Under the pieces are notes generated by a model. That model did no database searches and was not told the origin of the DNA. It saw only the letters and a list, made by a program, of their open reading frames with translations. A DNA stretch of 22,825 nucleotides from a virus: positions 1 through 22,825 of the IMG/VR virus record IMGVR_UViG_3300045135_001473; one strand, written 5' to 3'. A program made the translations under genes and the position numbers. Positions 8,213 to 15,504 of the stretch are shown in pieces (positions within the stretch are counted from its first letter, which is position 1; each line of letters starts with the position of its first letter).

Positions 8213-8264
8213 CGAATGGAATAACGATTTTGAGATATGCTTTTCGGGCGCACCACATAGGCAA

Positions 8265-8435
8265 CCGTGGGATAGTAAAGTAACCGTGGGATAGTAAATT
8301 GCGCCCCCATTACCCCCCAATAGCTAACCGTGGGATAGTAAATTGCAACCGTGGGATAGTAAACCCCTTAAAGTTTTTCACTTTATGAAATATTTTTAGG
8401 GGTAGCCGTGGGATAGTAAACCGTGGGATAGTAAA
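8265..8435. repeat. Direct-repeat array of CCGTGGGATAGTAAA (six copies)
   Basis: Six identical 15-bp copies in the same orientation at 8265-8279, 8284-8298, 8328-8342, 8349-8363, 8406-8420 and 8421-8435. The last two abut, and the array ends 1 nt from the stop codon of the gene at 8437-9126. Copies 2 and 3 share a longer 22-bp unit (TAA before, TTGC after). The intervening DNA includes C-rich and AT-rich tracts and no gene. Possible iterons, operators or recombination sites. Confidence 0.95.
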
Positions 8436-9126: not shown

Positions 9127-9143
9127 GTGCGCCTCTAAGATAA

Positions 9144-9173
9144 CCGTGGGATAGTAAACCATGGGATAGTAAA
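9144..9173. repeat. Tandem pair of the 15-bp repeat upstream of the 8437-9126 gene
   Basis: Two abutting copies at 9144-9158 (CCGTGGGATAGTAAA) and 9159-9173 (CCATGGGATAGTAAA, one change). Orientation matches the six copies at 8265-8435, so the gene lies between two tandem pairs. Confidence 0.95.
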
Positions 9174-9647: not shown

Positions 9648-11116
9648 GCTACTTTCCTCTTAGCGTACTTAATATTCAAATGCTTTAAATAGCTCTTGGT
9701 CTCATCTGACACATAGTATGCCTGATACGGTTGTATCCGATTAGGGAATACACCAAATCGCTCCTTATACTTATTAGCTGCCCAACCTTTCTTATAGCCT
9801 TTGTGCTTACCGTGTAGTAGTAGCTCACTAAAGAACTTGGCTTTCTGCTCAGTAGAAACCACCTTGTTTGCGTCACGCTTGATCTTAACCAACTCTTCGC
9901 CATCGGTTTGTAGCTGCTCAGTAATTGGTATCTCATACCCACACTTACAACGTAACCCCATCATCTCTGCGCCACATACAGGGCATGGCTTAACCTTGGC
10001 TTCTTTCTTCTCCTTAGTTAATGACTTTTCGTTATACTTTTTCTCGCCATCATCCAGCTCATCAGGCACTACCGCCTCAGCAAAGCCCCACTTACGACAA
10101 TTGCCAGCATGGTCTAAGTAGACTGCTCTATCTTTACCCTCTGCTGTACGCATAATACGACCTGCTATCTGCACGTAGTTAGTCAGGTTAGTTGGCTTGC
10201 AATCTATGATGCATGACGTAGTAGGCGAGTCGTAACCAGTGGATAGTAATTGACTGCACGACAGTATCTGGAACTCACCGTTATCGTGTGCATCAAACAA
10301 CTCTTGTCGCATATCGTCCTTCATATATCCGTCAATGTGATAAGCACTAACACCGTGAGAATTAAATAGCTCGACTAGGTATTTACTATGCTTAATACTG
10401 GGAGAAAACGCGATTGTTTGCATACCCTCAGCGTGTTTAAACCAATTCTTGACTATATCCCCAGATAACCTGTCTTTATCCTCTTCTGTGCGTCGAGAAA
10501 GCTCTTTTTGGTCATAGTCATACATGCCACCGGCTGTTTTTACTCTCTTGATACCCTTAGTGTCAATCTTAGCACCGCCATAGTAATCGACAGGCGTGAG
10601 ATAACCCATATCAACTAGCTCTAATGGAGTAATTGGTACTATGAGGTCATTGTAGTATTTGCCCATACCGCGGCTATATGGTGTTGCCGATAAGCCTATA
10701 ATTGGAATCTTGGTCCAACGCTCCATCTTGTCCATTAGCCACTTATACATTATGTGACACTCATCCACTAAGATAAGGTCAAAATCCATCTGACCTCGAT
10801 TCCTCATTCGTGATAATGTCTGTACTGAGCATATCTGTATAGGTGCATTCCAGTTAGTTCTTATGTGCTGACCTTGCATAACACCAACTTGTAACCCTAG
10901 TTCATCAAACTTCTCCATAGCTTGCTGTACTAACTTGATACGGTCACATACAAATGCTACACGCTTACCTTTCTTAACTGCGCTCATAGCGATGAATGCA
11001 GCCAATATCGTTTTGCCGAATGAGCATGGTGCTGCTAACACCACACGGTTCATGCCCTTCTTGAGGCTATGACGAATCATGTCGATAGCCTTTTCCTGAT
11101 GAGGTCTTAATTGCAT
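9644..11116 (-). CDS. Superfamily 2 DEAD/DEAH-box helicase
   Basis: A 490-residue ATP-dependent nucleic-acid translocase. Residues 3-7 (LRPHQ) form the Q-motif-like start, 29-36 (APCSFGKT) Walker A, 118-121 (DECH) motif II and 143-145 (SAT) motif III. The second RecA domain contains IAFSPSIKHS, a STGYDSP segment and QIAGRIMR (motif VI). Near residue 380 a zinc ribbon appears (CPVCGAEMMGLRCKCG). This architecture is the phage replication/repair helicase type similar to UvsW/RadD-like proteins, not a DnaB replicative helicase. The start ATG at 11116 has a run AGAGGGGGG upstream and overlaps the methyltransferase stop by 10 nt. Confidence 0.92.
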   Translation of the reverse strand: MQLRPHQEKAIDMIRHSLKKGMNRVVLAAPCSFGKTILAAFIAMSAVKKGKRVAFVCDRIKLVQQAMEKFDELGLQVGVMQGQHIRTNWNAPIQICSVQTLSRMRNRGQMDFDLILVDECHIMYKWLMDKMERWTKIPIIGLSATPYSRGMGKYYNDLIVPITPLELVDMGYLTPVDYYGGAKIDTKGIKRVKTAGGMYDYDQKELSRRTEEDKDRLSGDIVKNWFKHAEGMQTIAFSPSIKHSKYLVELFNSHGVSAYHIDGYMKDDMRQELFDAHDNGEFQILSCSQLLSTGYDSPTTSCIIDCKPTNLTNYVQIAGRIMRTAEGKDRAVYLDHAGNCRKWGFAEAVVPDELDDGEKKYNEKSLTKEKKEAKVKPCPVCGAEMMGLRCKCGYEIPITEQLQTDGEELVKIKRDANKVVSTEQKAKFFSELLLHGKHKGYKKGWAANKYKERFGVFPNRIQPYQAYYVSDETKSYLKHLNIKYAKRKVA

Positions 11117-11973
11117 ATACCCCCCTCTAACAGATGCTTAATTACATCTACAGTCCACCCATTACCTAAAACTTTCTGACATTGATTGTAGCTTAGTATA
11201 TCTGTGTAGCCATCTGGAACGGTTTGACATCTCTCAAGCTCTCTGCGAGTTAGGTATCTACAGAAATCTTCATGTTGTATAAGACCGCTATTAGGTTGAC
11301 GGTCTTGCTTTACTGTTAGGCAATATGCTTTATCGCTATTTGTTATATTGTAACAGCCACCAGATTTGCCACCTGTGCCATTACCGTCTGCCCACATTTT
11401 GCGTCTACTTGGTGTGTCATTAACCTTCGCTTCTGCAAGCATAATTGGATCGGTATCTTTTATATCTTGAAATGATATGCCTTTATCTATAGGTAAGTCT
11501 TGCTCCCAATTAAACCAATACCATCTCGGTCTTTTCTGTGCGCTTAAAACTTCACTGTTAATAAATACACCTTCTACACCAGTAAATTCATTTATAACCT
11601 CTAAGTTTTCTTTCTTCATCCTTACGTTTTCTAGCAAAAACTTAACGCTTGGATTTACATCTTTAACCTTGTTAAGTATCTCAATAAACGTAAAAAACAA
11701 CACAGAGCGTTGGTCGTTAAAAGCTAACTCTTTACCTATTCGTGAAAACCCTTGGCATGGGCTACCTGCCAAAACTAAGTCAAAGTTCCAATCGATATCC
11801 CACTCTTTCCATTTAGTTACATCCCCTAGACGTATGATGTCAGGGTAATTATGGTTGCTAACATTAATAGCGTGTTTATCTATCTCACTACTGTAATACT
11901 CACAATCAACGCCCATTTTATCCAGTGCAATGCGCCCACAACTCATGCCGTCAAACAAACTTAATACTCTCAT
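11107..11973 (-). CDS. C5-cytosine DNA methyltransferase
   Basis: A 288-residue enzyme transferring methyl from S-adenosylmethionine to cytosine C5. Visible motifs: I (LFDGMSCG, residues 6-13), IV (GSPCQG with catalytic Cys73), VI (ENV, 115-117), VIII (QKRPR, 146-150), IX (RRELERCQT) and X (GNGWTVDVI near the end). The target recognition domain between VIII and IX is short (about 80 residues), as in stand-alone phage enzymes. The ATG overlaps the stop of the PAPS-reductase-like gene at 11973. No cognate restriction enzyme can be named. It could protect phage DNA from host restriction; the site specificity is not readable from the sequence. Confidence 0.93.
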   Translation of the reverse strand: MRVLSLFDGMSCGRIALDKMGVDCEYYSSEIDKHAINVSNHNYPDIIRLGDVTKWKEWDIDWNFDLVLAGSPCQGFSRIGKELAFNDQRSVLFFTFIEILNKVKDVNPSVKFLLENVRMKKENLEVINEFTGVEGVFINSEVLSAQKRPRWYWFNWEQDLPIDKGISFQDIKDTDPIMLAEAKVNDTPSRRKMWADGNGTGGKSGGCYNITNSDKAYCLTVKQDRQPNSGLIQHEDFCRYLTRRELERCQTVPDGYTDILSYNQCQKVLGNGWTVDVIKHLLEGGICN

Positions 11974-12716
11974 TAATAATCCCCTTTAAATAGATCTAAT
12001 TGCCACTCACAAGTAAAACCACAATCACTTGGCATATCTCTCTTGAAGTTACCTCTATTCGGGTCTAGCTCATCAAGAAAAACCTTGCCATCTTTATCTT
12101 TTAATAGCGCGTGATTTAACTCTCTTTCCATTTTTGCCATTCTGTCAAAGTGGTCAGGAAAATCTTTGCGTATAGCATTCCAATAACCCATCCCACCTTT
12201 AACACAACCAATACAGTTATTATTGTTATAACCAAGCTTATACATTTGCGGAAGCTCTATACCAATATCTAAGATAAACTGCTTACATTCGGATTTACCG
12301 ATGTTTTTATCCAGTAGTGGAAACCATGAATCAACATCATTGTTAGAGTCAATAAACCTATCTGCTCTATCTTGCTCTTCTGCCGTGTAACCAAAAACCT
12401 GTAAATCATTAGGTTGCTGATATGACTTTCTGACATTCTTTTTAAGAATCATAGTGCATGGCGCACCCATTTGACCTTTTATAAACTTTCTTTCTTTAAA
12501 TACTTCGTAGATAGAGTAGTTATGCTTCTCAGAGCCTATAATCTCAACTTTAATTCCAGTTGCTTTTTCATAATCCTTAAGAAATCTAAGATTATCTTCT
12601 GATTCTTCAGCCACTCTGCAATACACTGCTTTTAGTTCAGGGTATTCCTTACTCGCAATATAAGTTGCGTAAGCACTGGCAGCTCCACAGCTAAACCAAC
12701 TAATAACTCTACTCAT
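11973..12716 (-). CDS. PAPS-reductase/DndC-like PP-loop protein
   Basis: A 247-residue member of the adenine-nucleotide alpha-hydrolase (PP-loop) superfamily. The loop is SCGAASA at residues 9-15, next to VISWF. A Cys-rich part follows (NNNCIGCVKGGMGYW, then DCGFTCEW), reminiscent of the Fe-S ligands of DndC and related sulfur-transfer enzymes. PP-loop relatives activate a substrate by adenylylation. Start choice: the ATG at 12716, with AAGGGG about 6 nt before it; an upstream frame to 12746 lies inside the previous gene. It is coupled to the methyltransferase gene, so a role in DNA modification or nucleotide-sulfur chemistry is possible but unproven. Confidence 0.82.
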   Translation of the reverse strand: MSRVISWFSCGAASAYATYIASKEYPELKAVYCRVAEESEDNLRFLKDYEKATGIKVEIIGSEKHNYSIYEVFKERKFIKGQMGAPCTMILKKNVRKSYQQPNDLQVFGYTAEEQDRADRFIDSNNDVDSWFPLLDKNIGKSECKQFILDIGIELPQMYKLGYNNNNCIGCVKGGMGYWNAIRKDFPDHFDRMAKMERELNHALLKDKDGKVFLDELDPNRGNFKRDMPSDCGFTCEWQLDLFKGDY

Positions 12717-12726
12717 CATTAACCCC

Positions 12727-12945
12727 TTATTCTTTTGTAATTCCAATATTGCCCTTAACAGGCACGATATTTCCTCTTATAGGCAGGTGAGTGTTGTCAT
12801 GACTGAACAAAGTAACAGTGAACGTGCGAGCTGAACTATCTGTTATCTTTAAGTCAAATACCGCAAAATCACCAGAGCTTTCATTAGTCAGTGTTTGTCT
12901 CGCTACTTCAATATTAATTATTTGATGTAAAACTAAACCATTCAT
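12727..12945 (-). CDS. Hypothetical 72-residue phage protein
   Basis: A small beta-rich protein (MNGLVLHQIINIEVARQTL, then ARTFTVTLFSHD, PIRGNIVPVKGNIGITKE). The pattern of alternating hydrophobics suggests an OB-like or small barrel fold, but no family is recognised. The ATG at 12945 has ribosome site GGGAGATAAAAT. The gene begins after a 76-bp gap containing an operator-like repeat, so it may be the first gene of the 12945-9195 operon. Confidence 0.65.
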   Translation of the reverse strand: MNGLVLHQIINIEVARQTLTNESSGDFAVFDLKITDSSARTFTVTLFSHDNTHLPIRGNIVPVKGNIGITKE

Positions 12946-13021: not shown

Positions 13022-13028
13022 TTATAAG
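13013..13028. promoter_or_regulatory. Putative operator, imperfect copy (site 4)
   Basis: GTAATA-TGCT-TATAAG, two mismatches from the perfect GTTATA-N4-TATAAC sites but embedded in the same longer conserved block as the sites near 8154-8212. Confidence 0.4.
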
Positions 13029-13534
13029 TTTATGATATATGAGGTAAGTTCTTTGATTGGGTGTAGGTTTTTGTATTGCAGGACGCCACAATCTGCCTTG
13101 TGGTTAAAACCTTCTTTATCTGTTTGACCATTCTTGTAGTAAGTGCATTTTTGCCAATATTCTTTCTTAGTAATAAACCCTAAATACTCTATTTCATTTT
13201 TCTTCTTATTGTAACTAGCAAATACATAAAGAAAGCAGTTCATATTTTTTTGAGATGCGCCAACATGTGCATTGTAATTCATGCTTGCATCTACATTTCT
13301 ATCTTTTGTTTTTATGTCAATAGTTACACCCTCAACAACAAAGTCATAGTCATATACTTTGTCACCAACATGACTATACTTTAGGCTATGACCTTTTAAT
13401 CCAGCAATAAAGCATAGCTCTCCTATATTACCTACGTACTGCCCAGTTCCATTACTTAGTATGGTTGTTTTATTAAATGAATCATTAGAACATTTTTCTT
13501 TAGCTTCCAATAGAATTTCATTACTTACTTCCAT
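13022..13534 (-). CDS. PD-(D/E)XK nuclease-like phage protein
   Basis: A 170-residue protein. NIGELCFIAGL (Glu39) followed by YDYDFVVEG (Asp62/Asp64) and VTIDIKTKDR (Asp73, Lys75) gives the order E...D...D-x-K of PD-(D/E)XK restriction-like nucleases. The C-terminal half reads as beta strands with FLYVFASY and YLGFITKKEYW. Many phage and restriction proteins share this fold. The ATG at 13534 has ribosome site TCTGGAGA. Upstream lies the ~500-nt structured non-coding region, so its mRNA may have an exceptionally long leader. Substrate and activity are not shown; it might be a repair, packaging or restriction-type enzyme. Confidence 0.62.
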   Translation of the reverse strand: MEVSNEILLEAKEKCSNDSFNKTTILSNGTGQYVGNIGELCFIAGLKGHSLKYSHVGDKVYDYDFVVEGVTIDIKTKDRNVDASMNYNAHVGASQKNMNCFLYVFASYNKKKNEIEYLGFITKKEYWQKCTYYKNGQTDKEGFNHKADCGVLQYKNLHPIKELTSYIINL

Positions 13535-13555
13535 ATATTTCTCCAGACAATAAGG

Positions 13556-14060
13556 GGTCTATGATAGGCTGTTGGTCAACCTGTCGGTATGCTTTACTTT
13601 ATATTTAACTACTGGCTAATCCTTTGCCTTTACCCATCGTTTACATGCTCAATCTGCATATTGGAGTAATTTCGTTTTCCCATCTCATCCAGTCATCAGC
13701 AAGTGATTTAACTAGGTGTCATCCTAGCAGTGGTATCACCATGTACCACCCTGTCTGGCTCATTAGAGCAAGTTGACCGTAACGCTGTTTATTCCCGCCT
13801 ATCAGAGGTCGGATGAGATTTCTTGCTTTCTTGAGCGGATGCACAATGAGACATCACAATTTAACTAGGCTCGACTAGCTCAACTGGTGCGATTTCGCTT
13901 GATAAATATGGGGGTGTCACGTAGAATGTCTTTGTCGACAAGGTTTGGTAACGTACCTCTTTACTTATCAAACTGGATTGCCGTCCAGTCGATGAATTGA
14001 ATATACTTTACTTTTGTAGTGGAGTAAAGAGAAAAGCCCACATATTGTTGGGCTTTTTTT
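13556..14060 (+). ncRNA. Putative large structured RNA (unrecognised family) ending in a terminator
   Basis: This gene-free stretch has dense complementary segments. ATCTCATCC (13682-13690) pairs perfectly with GGATGAGAT (13811-13819). CTCTTTACT (13957-13965) pairs perfectly with AGTAAAGAG (14023-14031). Local hairpins include CTAGG/CCTAG (13712-13727) enclosed by GTGAT/ATCAC, GCTC-ATTA-GAGC (13768-13779), TTGTCGACAA (13932-13941) and ACTGGA-TTGCCG-TCCAGT (13972-13989). The word ATTTAACTA occurs three times. The rightward strand ends in a strong terminator at 14032-14060. The size range is that of large phage RNAs such as ROOL and GOLLD, but I recognise no family. No clear rightward promoter is seen. 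The alternative is a long leader of the leftward gene ending at 13022. Confidence 0.5.
14032..14060 (+). terminator. Rho-independent terminator (rightward)
   Basis: AAAAGCCCA (14032-14040), loop CATATTGT, TGGGCTTTT (14049-14057), with a run of seven T residues to 14060. The T run after the hairpin is on the plus strand, whereas all nearby genes are on the minus strand, implying a rightward transcript. Confidence 0.75.
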
Positions 14061-14160
14061 GTGTCTGATGTATACTGGTTTTAGTGGGCGCATTTAATAT
14101 GCAAGGATGCGTTCATGCTAGTAGATGTTAATTAAAGCCCCTTGATTGGGGCTTATTTAT
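14048..14160 (+). repeat. Direct repeat copy A: candidate promoter, ~75-nt small RNA and terminator
   Basis: This copy shares with 15100-15213 a 49-bp core differing at one position (from 14083), an upstream TTGGGC plus T run, and a terminal GCCCC-N6-GGGGC hairpin followed by TTATTTAT. On the plus strand TTGGGC (14048-14053) and TATACT (14071-14076) are 17 bp apart and could be a promoter. The transcript would start near 14084 and end at the hairpin (14137-14152). On the minus strand the same hairpin could end the pentapeptide gene transcript. The T-rich tail conserved in both copies favours the plus strand. Confidence 0.5.
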
Positions 14161-14176
14161 GCTTCGGTAGTTTTAT

Positions 14177-14629
14177 TCATAATTCAATCTCCAGAGCTTT
14201 AACTTGCATCAATAAAAATTCTTCATATAGACTGTTTTCACCGTACTTTTTTATGATTGCTTTAATAGCTTCATCTGTATCACCCCAAAAACAACCTAGT
14301 TTGTGCATAACACAGTTGGCGTGTTTAACTGAATAGCATGTGCGCTTCTCTCCTTGTGGCGCTTGCCACTGCATTATTCCCATAGCACCGCTTAAATTAA
14401 CACCGCTTAAATCAGCACCCCTTAAATTCGCACCATTTAAATTAGCACCGCTTAAATCAGCACATCTTAAAATAGCATCTCTTAAATCAGTATATATTAA
14501 ATTAGCATCTCTTAAATTAGCACCGCTTAAATCAGCGTCGTATAAATCAGCACCTCTTAAATCAGAAACGCTTAATTTAGCATATTTTAAATAAGCACCT
14601 TTTTTTATCTCGTAGCCATTAACTATCAT
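14177..14629 (-). CDS. Pentapeptide-repeat protein
   Basis: In 150 residues, positions about 13-82 consist of A(D/N)LXX pentapeptide repeats (for example [35 protein letters not shown]), which fold into a right-handed quadrilateral beta-helix. The C-terminal 60 residues are not repeats ([20 protein letters not shown]). Known pentapeptide proteins such as Qnr and MfpA mimic DNA and bind gyrase; many phage ones are uncharacterised. The ATG at 14629 is preceded by GGAAGATTGAATT. The codon repeats create long open frames on the opposite strand that are not genes. The gene lies between the two direct-repeat copies. A gyrase-protective role is possible but not shown. Confidence 0.85.
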
Positions 14630-15043: not shown

Positions 15044-15099
15044 TAAATTTCTCCATTTAGTTTTGTTTAGCATAACTTCTCTTGTTTTAATAAATTCTA

Positions 15100-15213
15100 T
15101 TGGGCTTTTTTATATCTATGTGTATGCTTATTATCAGTGGGCGCATTTAATATGCAAGGATGCGTTCATGCTGGTAGATGTTAAGTATAGCCCCTTAACT
15201 GGGGCTTATTTAT
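15100..15213 (+). repeat. Direct repeat copy B: candidate promoter, ~75-nt small RNA and terminator
   Basis: Second copy of the element at 14048-14160, offset 1052 bp. The core 15136-15172 is identical over 37 bp to 14083-14119. TTGGGC (15100-15105) and TATGCT (15123-15128) again lie 17 bp apart. The hairpin GCCCC-TTAACT-GGGGC (15190-15205) has a different loop from copy A but the same stem and the same TTATTTAT tail. It ends 3 nt before the stop codon of the convergent gene at 15217. Confidence 0.5.
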
Positions 15214-15216
15214 ATC

Positions 15217-15504
15217 TCAAAGAAGTGTATCGGCTTCCATTCTCTTTCGCGGGCTAAACTCATCAGTACACAAGAATCGCCTCATATACATACTGCTATT
15301 AGTGATATTGACGTTTACCTGTCGTAGGTATGGAATCAACATGCCAGAGTTAACCTTAGTCTGCTTAATTGTCTTACCGTTAACGTAATAATCAATTATG
15401 CCACGTCTAACAGAGTCAATCATATTCAAACCATCCATGGCATTAACCACTTGCTCTAACGATAACGTGCCTTTCTTAAACTTGTAGTGGTTGTCACCTA
15501 TCAT
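15217..15504 (-). CDS. Hypothetical 95-residue protein
   Basis: A mixed alpha/beta protein (MIGDNHYKFKKGTLSLEQVV, then IDYYVNGKTIKQT, MLIPYLRQVNVNI) ending in a Lys/Arg-rich segment. The pattern NGKTIKQTKVNSGMLIPYLRQV could be a small DNA-binding helix-turn-helix, but I cannot assign a family. It overlaps the upstream gene by 4 nt (ATGA). It is the last gene of the 16727-15217 operon. Confidence 0.6.
   Translation of the reverse strand: MIGDNHYKFKKGTLSLEQVVNAMDGLNMIDSVRRGIIDYYVNGKTIKQTKVNSGMLIPYLRQVNVNITNSSMYMRRFLCTDEFSPRKRMEADTLL

Follow-up and report, generated by a model that had tools for sequence, protein, structure and literature searches.

A previously uncatalogued, pseudoknotted RNA family in uncultivated phages and its possible role as a sense/antisense module

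Results

We analyzed a stretch of viral DNA (the window; 22,825 nt of IMG/VR record IMGVR_UViG_3300045135_001473). This 22.8-kb piece comes from an uncultivated phage; its terminase is closest to those of Roseobacter phage CRP-823 and its relatives, and its main genes are all encoded on the minus strand. On that strand, a pentapeptide-repeat ORF (gene B, 14177–14629) is followed by a gap and then by a 170-aa ORF (gene A, 13022–13534) for which no family match was found. Outside these neighbouring genes, the region 13535–14176 contains no ORF reaching 60 aa and only a single 50-aa chance ORF, as expected from the original prediction, which had been made from this sequence alone and described an ORF-free stretch at 13556–14060 among minus-strand genes. 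That stretch is indeed part of a non-coding element, but the conserved element is slightly longer (13545–14060, about 515 nt; taken here as a whole, without strand). The start of gene A adjoins it, with a Shine-Dalgarno sequence GGAGA at 13544–13540. A scan of the window for tRNA genes found none. Intergenic repeats occur elsewhere in the window: the segment 14048–14160, which includes the distal part of the terminator described below, is duplicated at 15100–15213 (87% identical), so that the two copies flank gene B and its 146-aa neighbour, and in the related contig L003 the sequence matching 15078–15243, which holds the second copy, was not aligned. Repeats of 33–44 bp also surround the minor-tail-protein gene (8257–8435 and 9141–9173).

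The window sequence by itself gave weak evidence of structure. Two perfect 9-bp complementary pairs (13682–13690 with 13811–13819, and 13957–13965 with 14023–14031) are present where they had been predicted, and with the terminator stem counted the region contains three such pairs against 0.45 expected from dinucleotide shuffles (P = 0.037). The word ATTTAACTA likewise occurs three times (13603, 13706, and 13859), with only the third copy falling within the conserved core, and a plus-strand terminator, AAAAGCCCACATATTGTTGGGCTTTTTTT, ends at 14060, both in agreement with the prediction. Single-sequence folding of the window element was unremarkable on the plus strand (z = −1.6) and better on the minus strand (z = −3.9); the mean z over 16 family members (−1.76 plus, −1.49 minus) favored neither. 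The question is settled by comparative evidence, because homologue conservation and the covariation of helix PK1, both described below, confirm on sequence grounds that the observation is real and beyond chance.

We found homologues of the element in approximately 75 viral contigs. It is carried both by a near-identical contig (L003/L004/L005) and by the diverged contig L006, in which the interval 13825–14004 is 80% identical, compared with about 68–74% for the flanking genes. Pattern scans of IMG/VR returned 35, 67, and 70 stretches, where few were expected by chance. A core covariance model of 97 positions recovered 70 loci at E ≤ 1e-13, one copy each, and matched exactly once in 21 of the 23 whole records tested; the window element scored 107 bits (E 1e-20) at 13781–13878. 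All family members are uncultivated viral contigs with one copy per contig, and their elements range from 370 to 590 nt in length.

The family is previously uncatalogued, without a match in Rfam or in the cultured phages, plasmids, and GTDB genomes searched. Among the 4227 families of Rfam 15, none exceeded its gathering score in the window or ten relatives, and relaxed thresholds yielded only weak below-threshold matches in the window and its homologues. Against cultured phages and plasmids, blastn gave 31-nt terminator-like matches or none, and one GTDB scan gave 7 chance matches without family context (at most 15.7 bits in the model); these searches used nucleotide similarity or patterns, which very diverged members would escape. 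There was no significant match in Pelagibacter phages HTVC111P and HTVC026P, phage DSL-LC06, Roseobacter phage CRP-823, or a related contig of L007, and the open-licence papers searched contained no description of the RNA family.

ROOL (RF03087), a large pseudoknotted phage RNA of unknown function, and GOLLD (RF02032), a large phage RNA in which a conserved domain is combined with a variable one, have been described before (PMC12286853). The present element resembles both: it is also a large pseudoknotted phage RNA whose function is likewise unassigned, and it too has a conserved and a variable domain. However, when the window record and nine relatives were searched with the two models, neither gave a match at E ≤ 10, although the positive-control genomes for ROOL were silent as well; direct cmscan of the window and ten relatives was negative for both RNAs. 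By the model test, the element is not GOLLD, a longer RNA (often over 800 nt, compared with 370–590 nt here) whose expression rises during phage lysis. ROOL often lies near tRNA islands and assembles into an RNA-only octamer cage. In contrast to these two RNAs, the window element has no tRNA nearby, and unlike ROOL it is overlapped by a putative counter-transcript. The original prediction had recognized no family consensus and proposed that the RNA may be of a new class; these searches support a structured, non-coding phage RNA that is so far unclassified.

RNAalifold gave a poor result on the raw MAFFT alignment because domain lengths vary, and arms were therefore compared in fixed registers. 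The two arms of PK1 (13682–13690 and 13811–13819; this and the following helices are assigned to the minus strand), which correspond to the first of the two predicted 9-bp pairs, change together across lineages, as do those of other helices: AUCUCAUCC/GGAUGAGAU, CAAACAUAC/GUAUGUUUG, UCAAUCUAC/GUAGAUUGA, and UCCGACAAC/GUUGUUGGA are among the covarying PK1 combinations. Cognate PK1 arms formed 8.25 of 10 pairs, compared with 4.83 for swapped arms (0 of 10,000 shuffles). Two further helices were supported by the same arm-swap comparison, namely H1 (TGATAGGC at 13562–13569 with GCCTATCA at 13797–13804; 7.5 of 8 pairs vs 5.4 swapped) and H2 (GGTCAA at 13574–13579 with TTGACC at 13773–13778; 5.5 of 6 vs 3.2). 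H1 encloses one arm of PK1 but not the other; the two helices therefore cross, and the fold contains a pseudoknot. Covariation thus strongly supports PK1 as a long-range pseudoknot helix. Helix H4 (CAGC at 13697–13700 with GCTG at 13784–13787) shows compensatory changes, being CAGUG/CACUG, CAGCG/CGCUG, or CAGC/GCUG depending on the lineage.

The conserved core includes two covarying hairpins. H6 (13838–13855), GATG(CACAATGAGA)CATC, has a near-invariant loop on a stem that appears as GAUG/CAUC, GGUG/CACC, GCUG/CAGC, CCCG/CGGG, CCUG/CAGG, or UUUG/CAAA, and H7 (13865–13878), CTAG(GCTCGA)CTAG, is paired in all 46 distinct rows, with stem variants CUAG/CUAG, CUGG/CCAG, AGAG/CUCU, and UCAG/CUGA. Across these hairpins, 6 pairs changed on both sides, compared with 1.4 in shuffles, and controls with slid partners lost the covariation signal. 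A mini-gene based on the short shared frame MRxxxLxRLD (13847–13878 and homologous positions) was also considered; most members have no ATG there, the stop is lost in L086 and L087, and the changes track H6 and H7, so the frame looks like a by-product of these hairpins.

In the 3′ domain, the arms of helix H9 (13899–13908 and 13962–13971) form 9 of 10 pairs in the window, L006, and L011 despite differing sequences, and a lineage-specific helix, H8, changes compensatorily. Conversely, the second predicted 9-bp pair (13957–13965 with 14023–14031) is not conserved: it is absent in L006 and clashes with H9 and with a local hairpin (14006–14012 with 14023–14029).

When a G–C pair drifts to A–U, the tolerated intermediate is G·U on the strand that acts as RNA. 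Among the non-Watson–Crick cells of PK1 and H6, read on the plus strand, A·C outnumbered G·U by 12 to 3 (P = 0.018) with a spurious alignment of L015 included and by approximately 10 to 1 without it, a small count that was partly tallied by hand and whose events are not fully independent. The intermediates in H4, H9, and one hairpin of the 3′ domain point in the same direction. Since A·C on the plus strand is G·U on the minus strand, the long folded RNA is probably in the sense of the operon; we regard this evidence for the minus strand as moderate and not decisive. The proposed operon-sense RNA would span 13545–14060 (about 515 nt) on the minus strand, its 3′ end abutting the Shine-Dalgarno sequence of the next gene.

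A second line of strand evidence disagrees with the first, as the terminator and a promoter-like site point to the plus strand. The terminator (AAAAGCCCA...TGGGCTTTTTTT, 14032–14060, plus) has a counterpart in nearly every complete member, and among the roughly 20 different stem sequences in the family the pairing is kept, with a T run after each. Upstream of it, the window contains a sigma-70-like site, TTGATA-N17-TAGAAT (13899–13927, plus; 10 of 12 consensus positions). Sites matching at 9 or more of 12 positions were present on the plus strand in 41 of 47 distinct 3′ domains, compared with 6 on the minus strand and 5.2 expected from shuffles; a few 3′ domains (L025, L086, L089, and L091) scored weakly. 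In the large group of members, transcription would begin about 78 nt ahead of the T run, a distance kept in L014 despite a 43-nt insertion upstream; in the window-like group, it would begin about 120–130 nt ahead of the terminator. Because the site stands so close to the terminator (only about 120 nt in the window), the plus-strand product is probably a small RNA complementary to the start of the minus-strand RNA, with a predicted size of about 125 nt in the window (13934–14060) and about 85 nt in most members.

In most members, a C-rich loop in the hairpin of this predicted small RNA matches the downstream ribosome-binding region over 6.65 nt for cognate pairs, compared with 6.03 nt for swapped and 5.11 nt for shuffled ones, which is suggestive only; a clear C-rich anti-Shine-Dalgarno loop was not evident in the window element. 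In L012-type contigs, 42 other ORFs have GAAGGG no more than 22 nt ahead of their ATG, compared with about 8 expected from its overall frequency, and a C-rich small-RNA loop could thus have many targets; general Shine-Dalgarno enrichment would also account for this excess.

In every contig, the genes around the element are oriented against the plus-strand RNA (126187 aa, compared with 7410 aa in same-strand ORFs that are probably spurious). Sequence conservation ends at the Shine-Dalgarno sequence of the downstream gene, and in nearly all members that ribosome-binding site is held tight against the element, whereas in L031/L037 no gene start adjoins it. Clustering of the downstream genes gave at least 15 unrelated groups. 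The capsid and packaging genes of the carriers also differ, including a lambda-GpA-like terminase in the window, a Pelagibacter-phage-like portal in L060, and a phrog_1328 capsid in L084. Moreover, the L084 element is a mosaic of a 5′ half like that of the window and a 3′ domain like that of L031. Together, the unrelated downstream genes, the differing phages, and this mosaic suggest that the RNA unit is exchanged between phages and between sites. The main alternative within the original prediction, a long leader RNA for a PD-(D/E)XK-like gene, gains ground insofar as a leader on the gene strand is concerned; because the downstream genes are unrelated, it does not hold as a leader specific to that gene.

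The proposal that the major capsid gene has the same Shine-Dalgarno sequence, GGAGAAGGG, was not supported when tested. In L067, TTAGACAATAG and, shortly after it, CACGCTGTTTATCC stand about 6.3 kb ahead of the core on the plus strand of the RNA; these are two element words side by side outside the element, possibly a remnant or a chance occurrence.

Discussion

With a confidence slightly below even, we prefer to read the element as a sense/antisense RNA module, of which each genome has one copy and whose small counter-transcript would control a structured operon RNA. The family, its fold, the terminator, and the promoter-like site are supported by comparison among members; from these we infer the strand of the long RNA, the production of either RNA, and the regulatory step. 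Transcription of the minus strand would yield a structured RNA of 370–590 nt with a pseudoknotted core, ending directly at the ribosome-binding site of the gene behind it, while the internal plus-strand promoter-like site would drive a short RNA that stops at the conserved terminator and has perfect complementarity to the initial part of the structured RNA. The short RNA may then pair with the nascent structured RNA and take up strands of the helices that close its 5′ domain (H9 in the window, H8 in the larger group). In many members, its C-rich hairpin loop could also mask the ribosome-binding site. Such pairing would switch the fold of the structured RNA and the expression of the operon behind the element. 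The unrelated downstream genes and the lack of an adjacent gene start in L031/L037 count against the module, since both are odd for a cis-regulator of one gene.

Comparable antisense-controlled structured RNAs are CopA/CopT of plasmid R1 and RNA I/RNA II of ColE1, in which a short RNA, read from the opposite strand between a promoter of its own and an intrinsic terminator, overlaps a long sense RNA near its 5′ end. The predicted layout of the element resembles theirs, judging from the promoter-like site and the terminator, which are conserved and keep a fixed distance; the clearly conserved structure of the long RNA would fit as well, although its placement on the opposite strand here comes from the wobble asymmetry only. 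Unlike these systems, the element has no Rfam match (window and ten relatives), is phage-borne, and stands before unrelated genes. Lambda OOP and P22 sar are short, terminator-ended RNAs opposite to phage genes, as is predicted for the short RNA here, but they oppose coding regions, whereas the region opposed here is non-coding and strongly structured.

To our knowledge, phages have yielded few large structured RNAs, whose functions are unknown. The present family has neither an Rfam entry nor a match among the sequenced cultured phages searched, yet its carriers represent at least three capsid/packaging types. The family offers a fold supported by covariation, a defined putative counter-RNA of small size, and clear-cut boundaries suitable for cloning, so that the role of large phage RNAs becomes directly testable in a reporter, without phage culture. 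We tentatively consider it possible that the pseudoknotted 370–590-nt operon RNA and its built-in counter-transcript form an exchangeable operon switch that moves between unrelated aquatic phages and stands in front of different genes; if so, it would represent a new and widespread class of phage RNA device.

It is somewhat unlikely that the minus-strand structured RNA is instead embedded in the operon, released from it, and active in trans, with the counter-transcript being secondary. Such an RNA, with the same modest probability, might serve as a scaffold, a host-factor decoy, or an RNA-only assembly like ROOL and GOLLD. Its conservation beside unrelated genes, its single copy per genome across phages with differing capsid and packaging genes, its extensive pseudoknotted fold, and the situation in L031/L037 would all fit this. 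However, no known processing signal accompanies the element, and the tight hold of the downstream ribosome-binding site in nearly all members speaks against this reading.

We consider quite unlikely the free-standing plus-strand RNA of about 500 nt that was originally predicted, here taken to run from the conserved 5′ block (with GACAAT, 13546–13551, as its −10) to the terminator. Part of the prediction was supported, namely a structured, non-coding element with a plus-strand terminator, surrounded by genes on the other strand. The presence of the terminator in nearly every complete member and the conservation of the 5′ block, AGACAATAG, after which comes a variable spacer, are also consistent with it. 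What was not supported is the strand of the long RNA, because the non-Watson–Crick intermediates of the covarying helices agree with the minus strand and the promoter-like site would give only a small plus-strand product. In addition, conservation upstream of the 5′ block goes no further than the ribosome-binding site of the neighbouring gene and includes no −35, and the better promoter is inside the element. Elsewhere in these phages, AGACAATAG does not recur as a promoter motif, with 5 occurrences compared with 4.6 expected.

A DNA-level element (replication origin or recombination hotspot) or a decayed coding region is very improbable, even though the swapping of flanking genes between phages indicates that the flanks recombine often, given the compensatory changes in at least five helices, the terminators and promoters on one strand, and the lack of a conserved frame, with MRxxxLxRLD mostly lacking an ATG and sometimes its stop.

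L003/L004 lack the DNA methyltransferase and PAPS-reductase-like genes found at 11107–12720 of the window, and the sharp junction near 12720 suggests a recent cassette exchange. The PAPS-reductase-like protein (phrog_424) recurs in phages that carry the RNA (window 11973–12746, L084 3657–4391, and L025 2571–3332), accompanied by a cytosine DNA methyltransferase in the window and L084.
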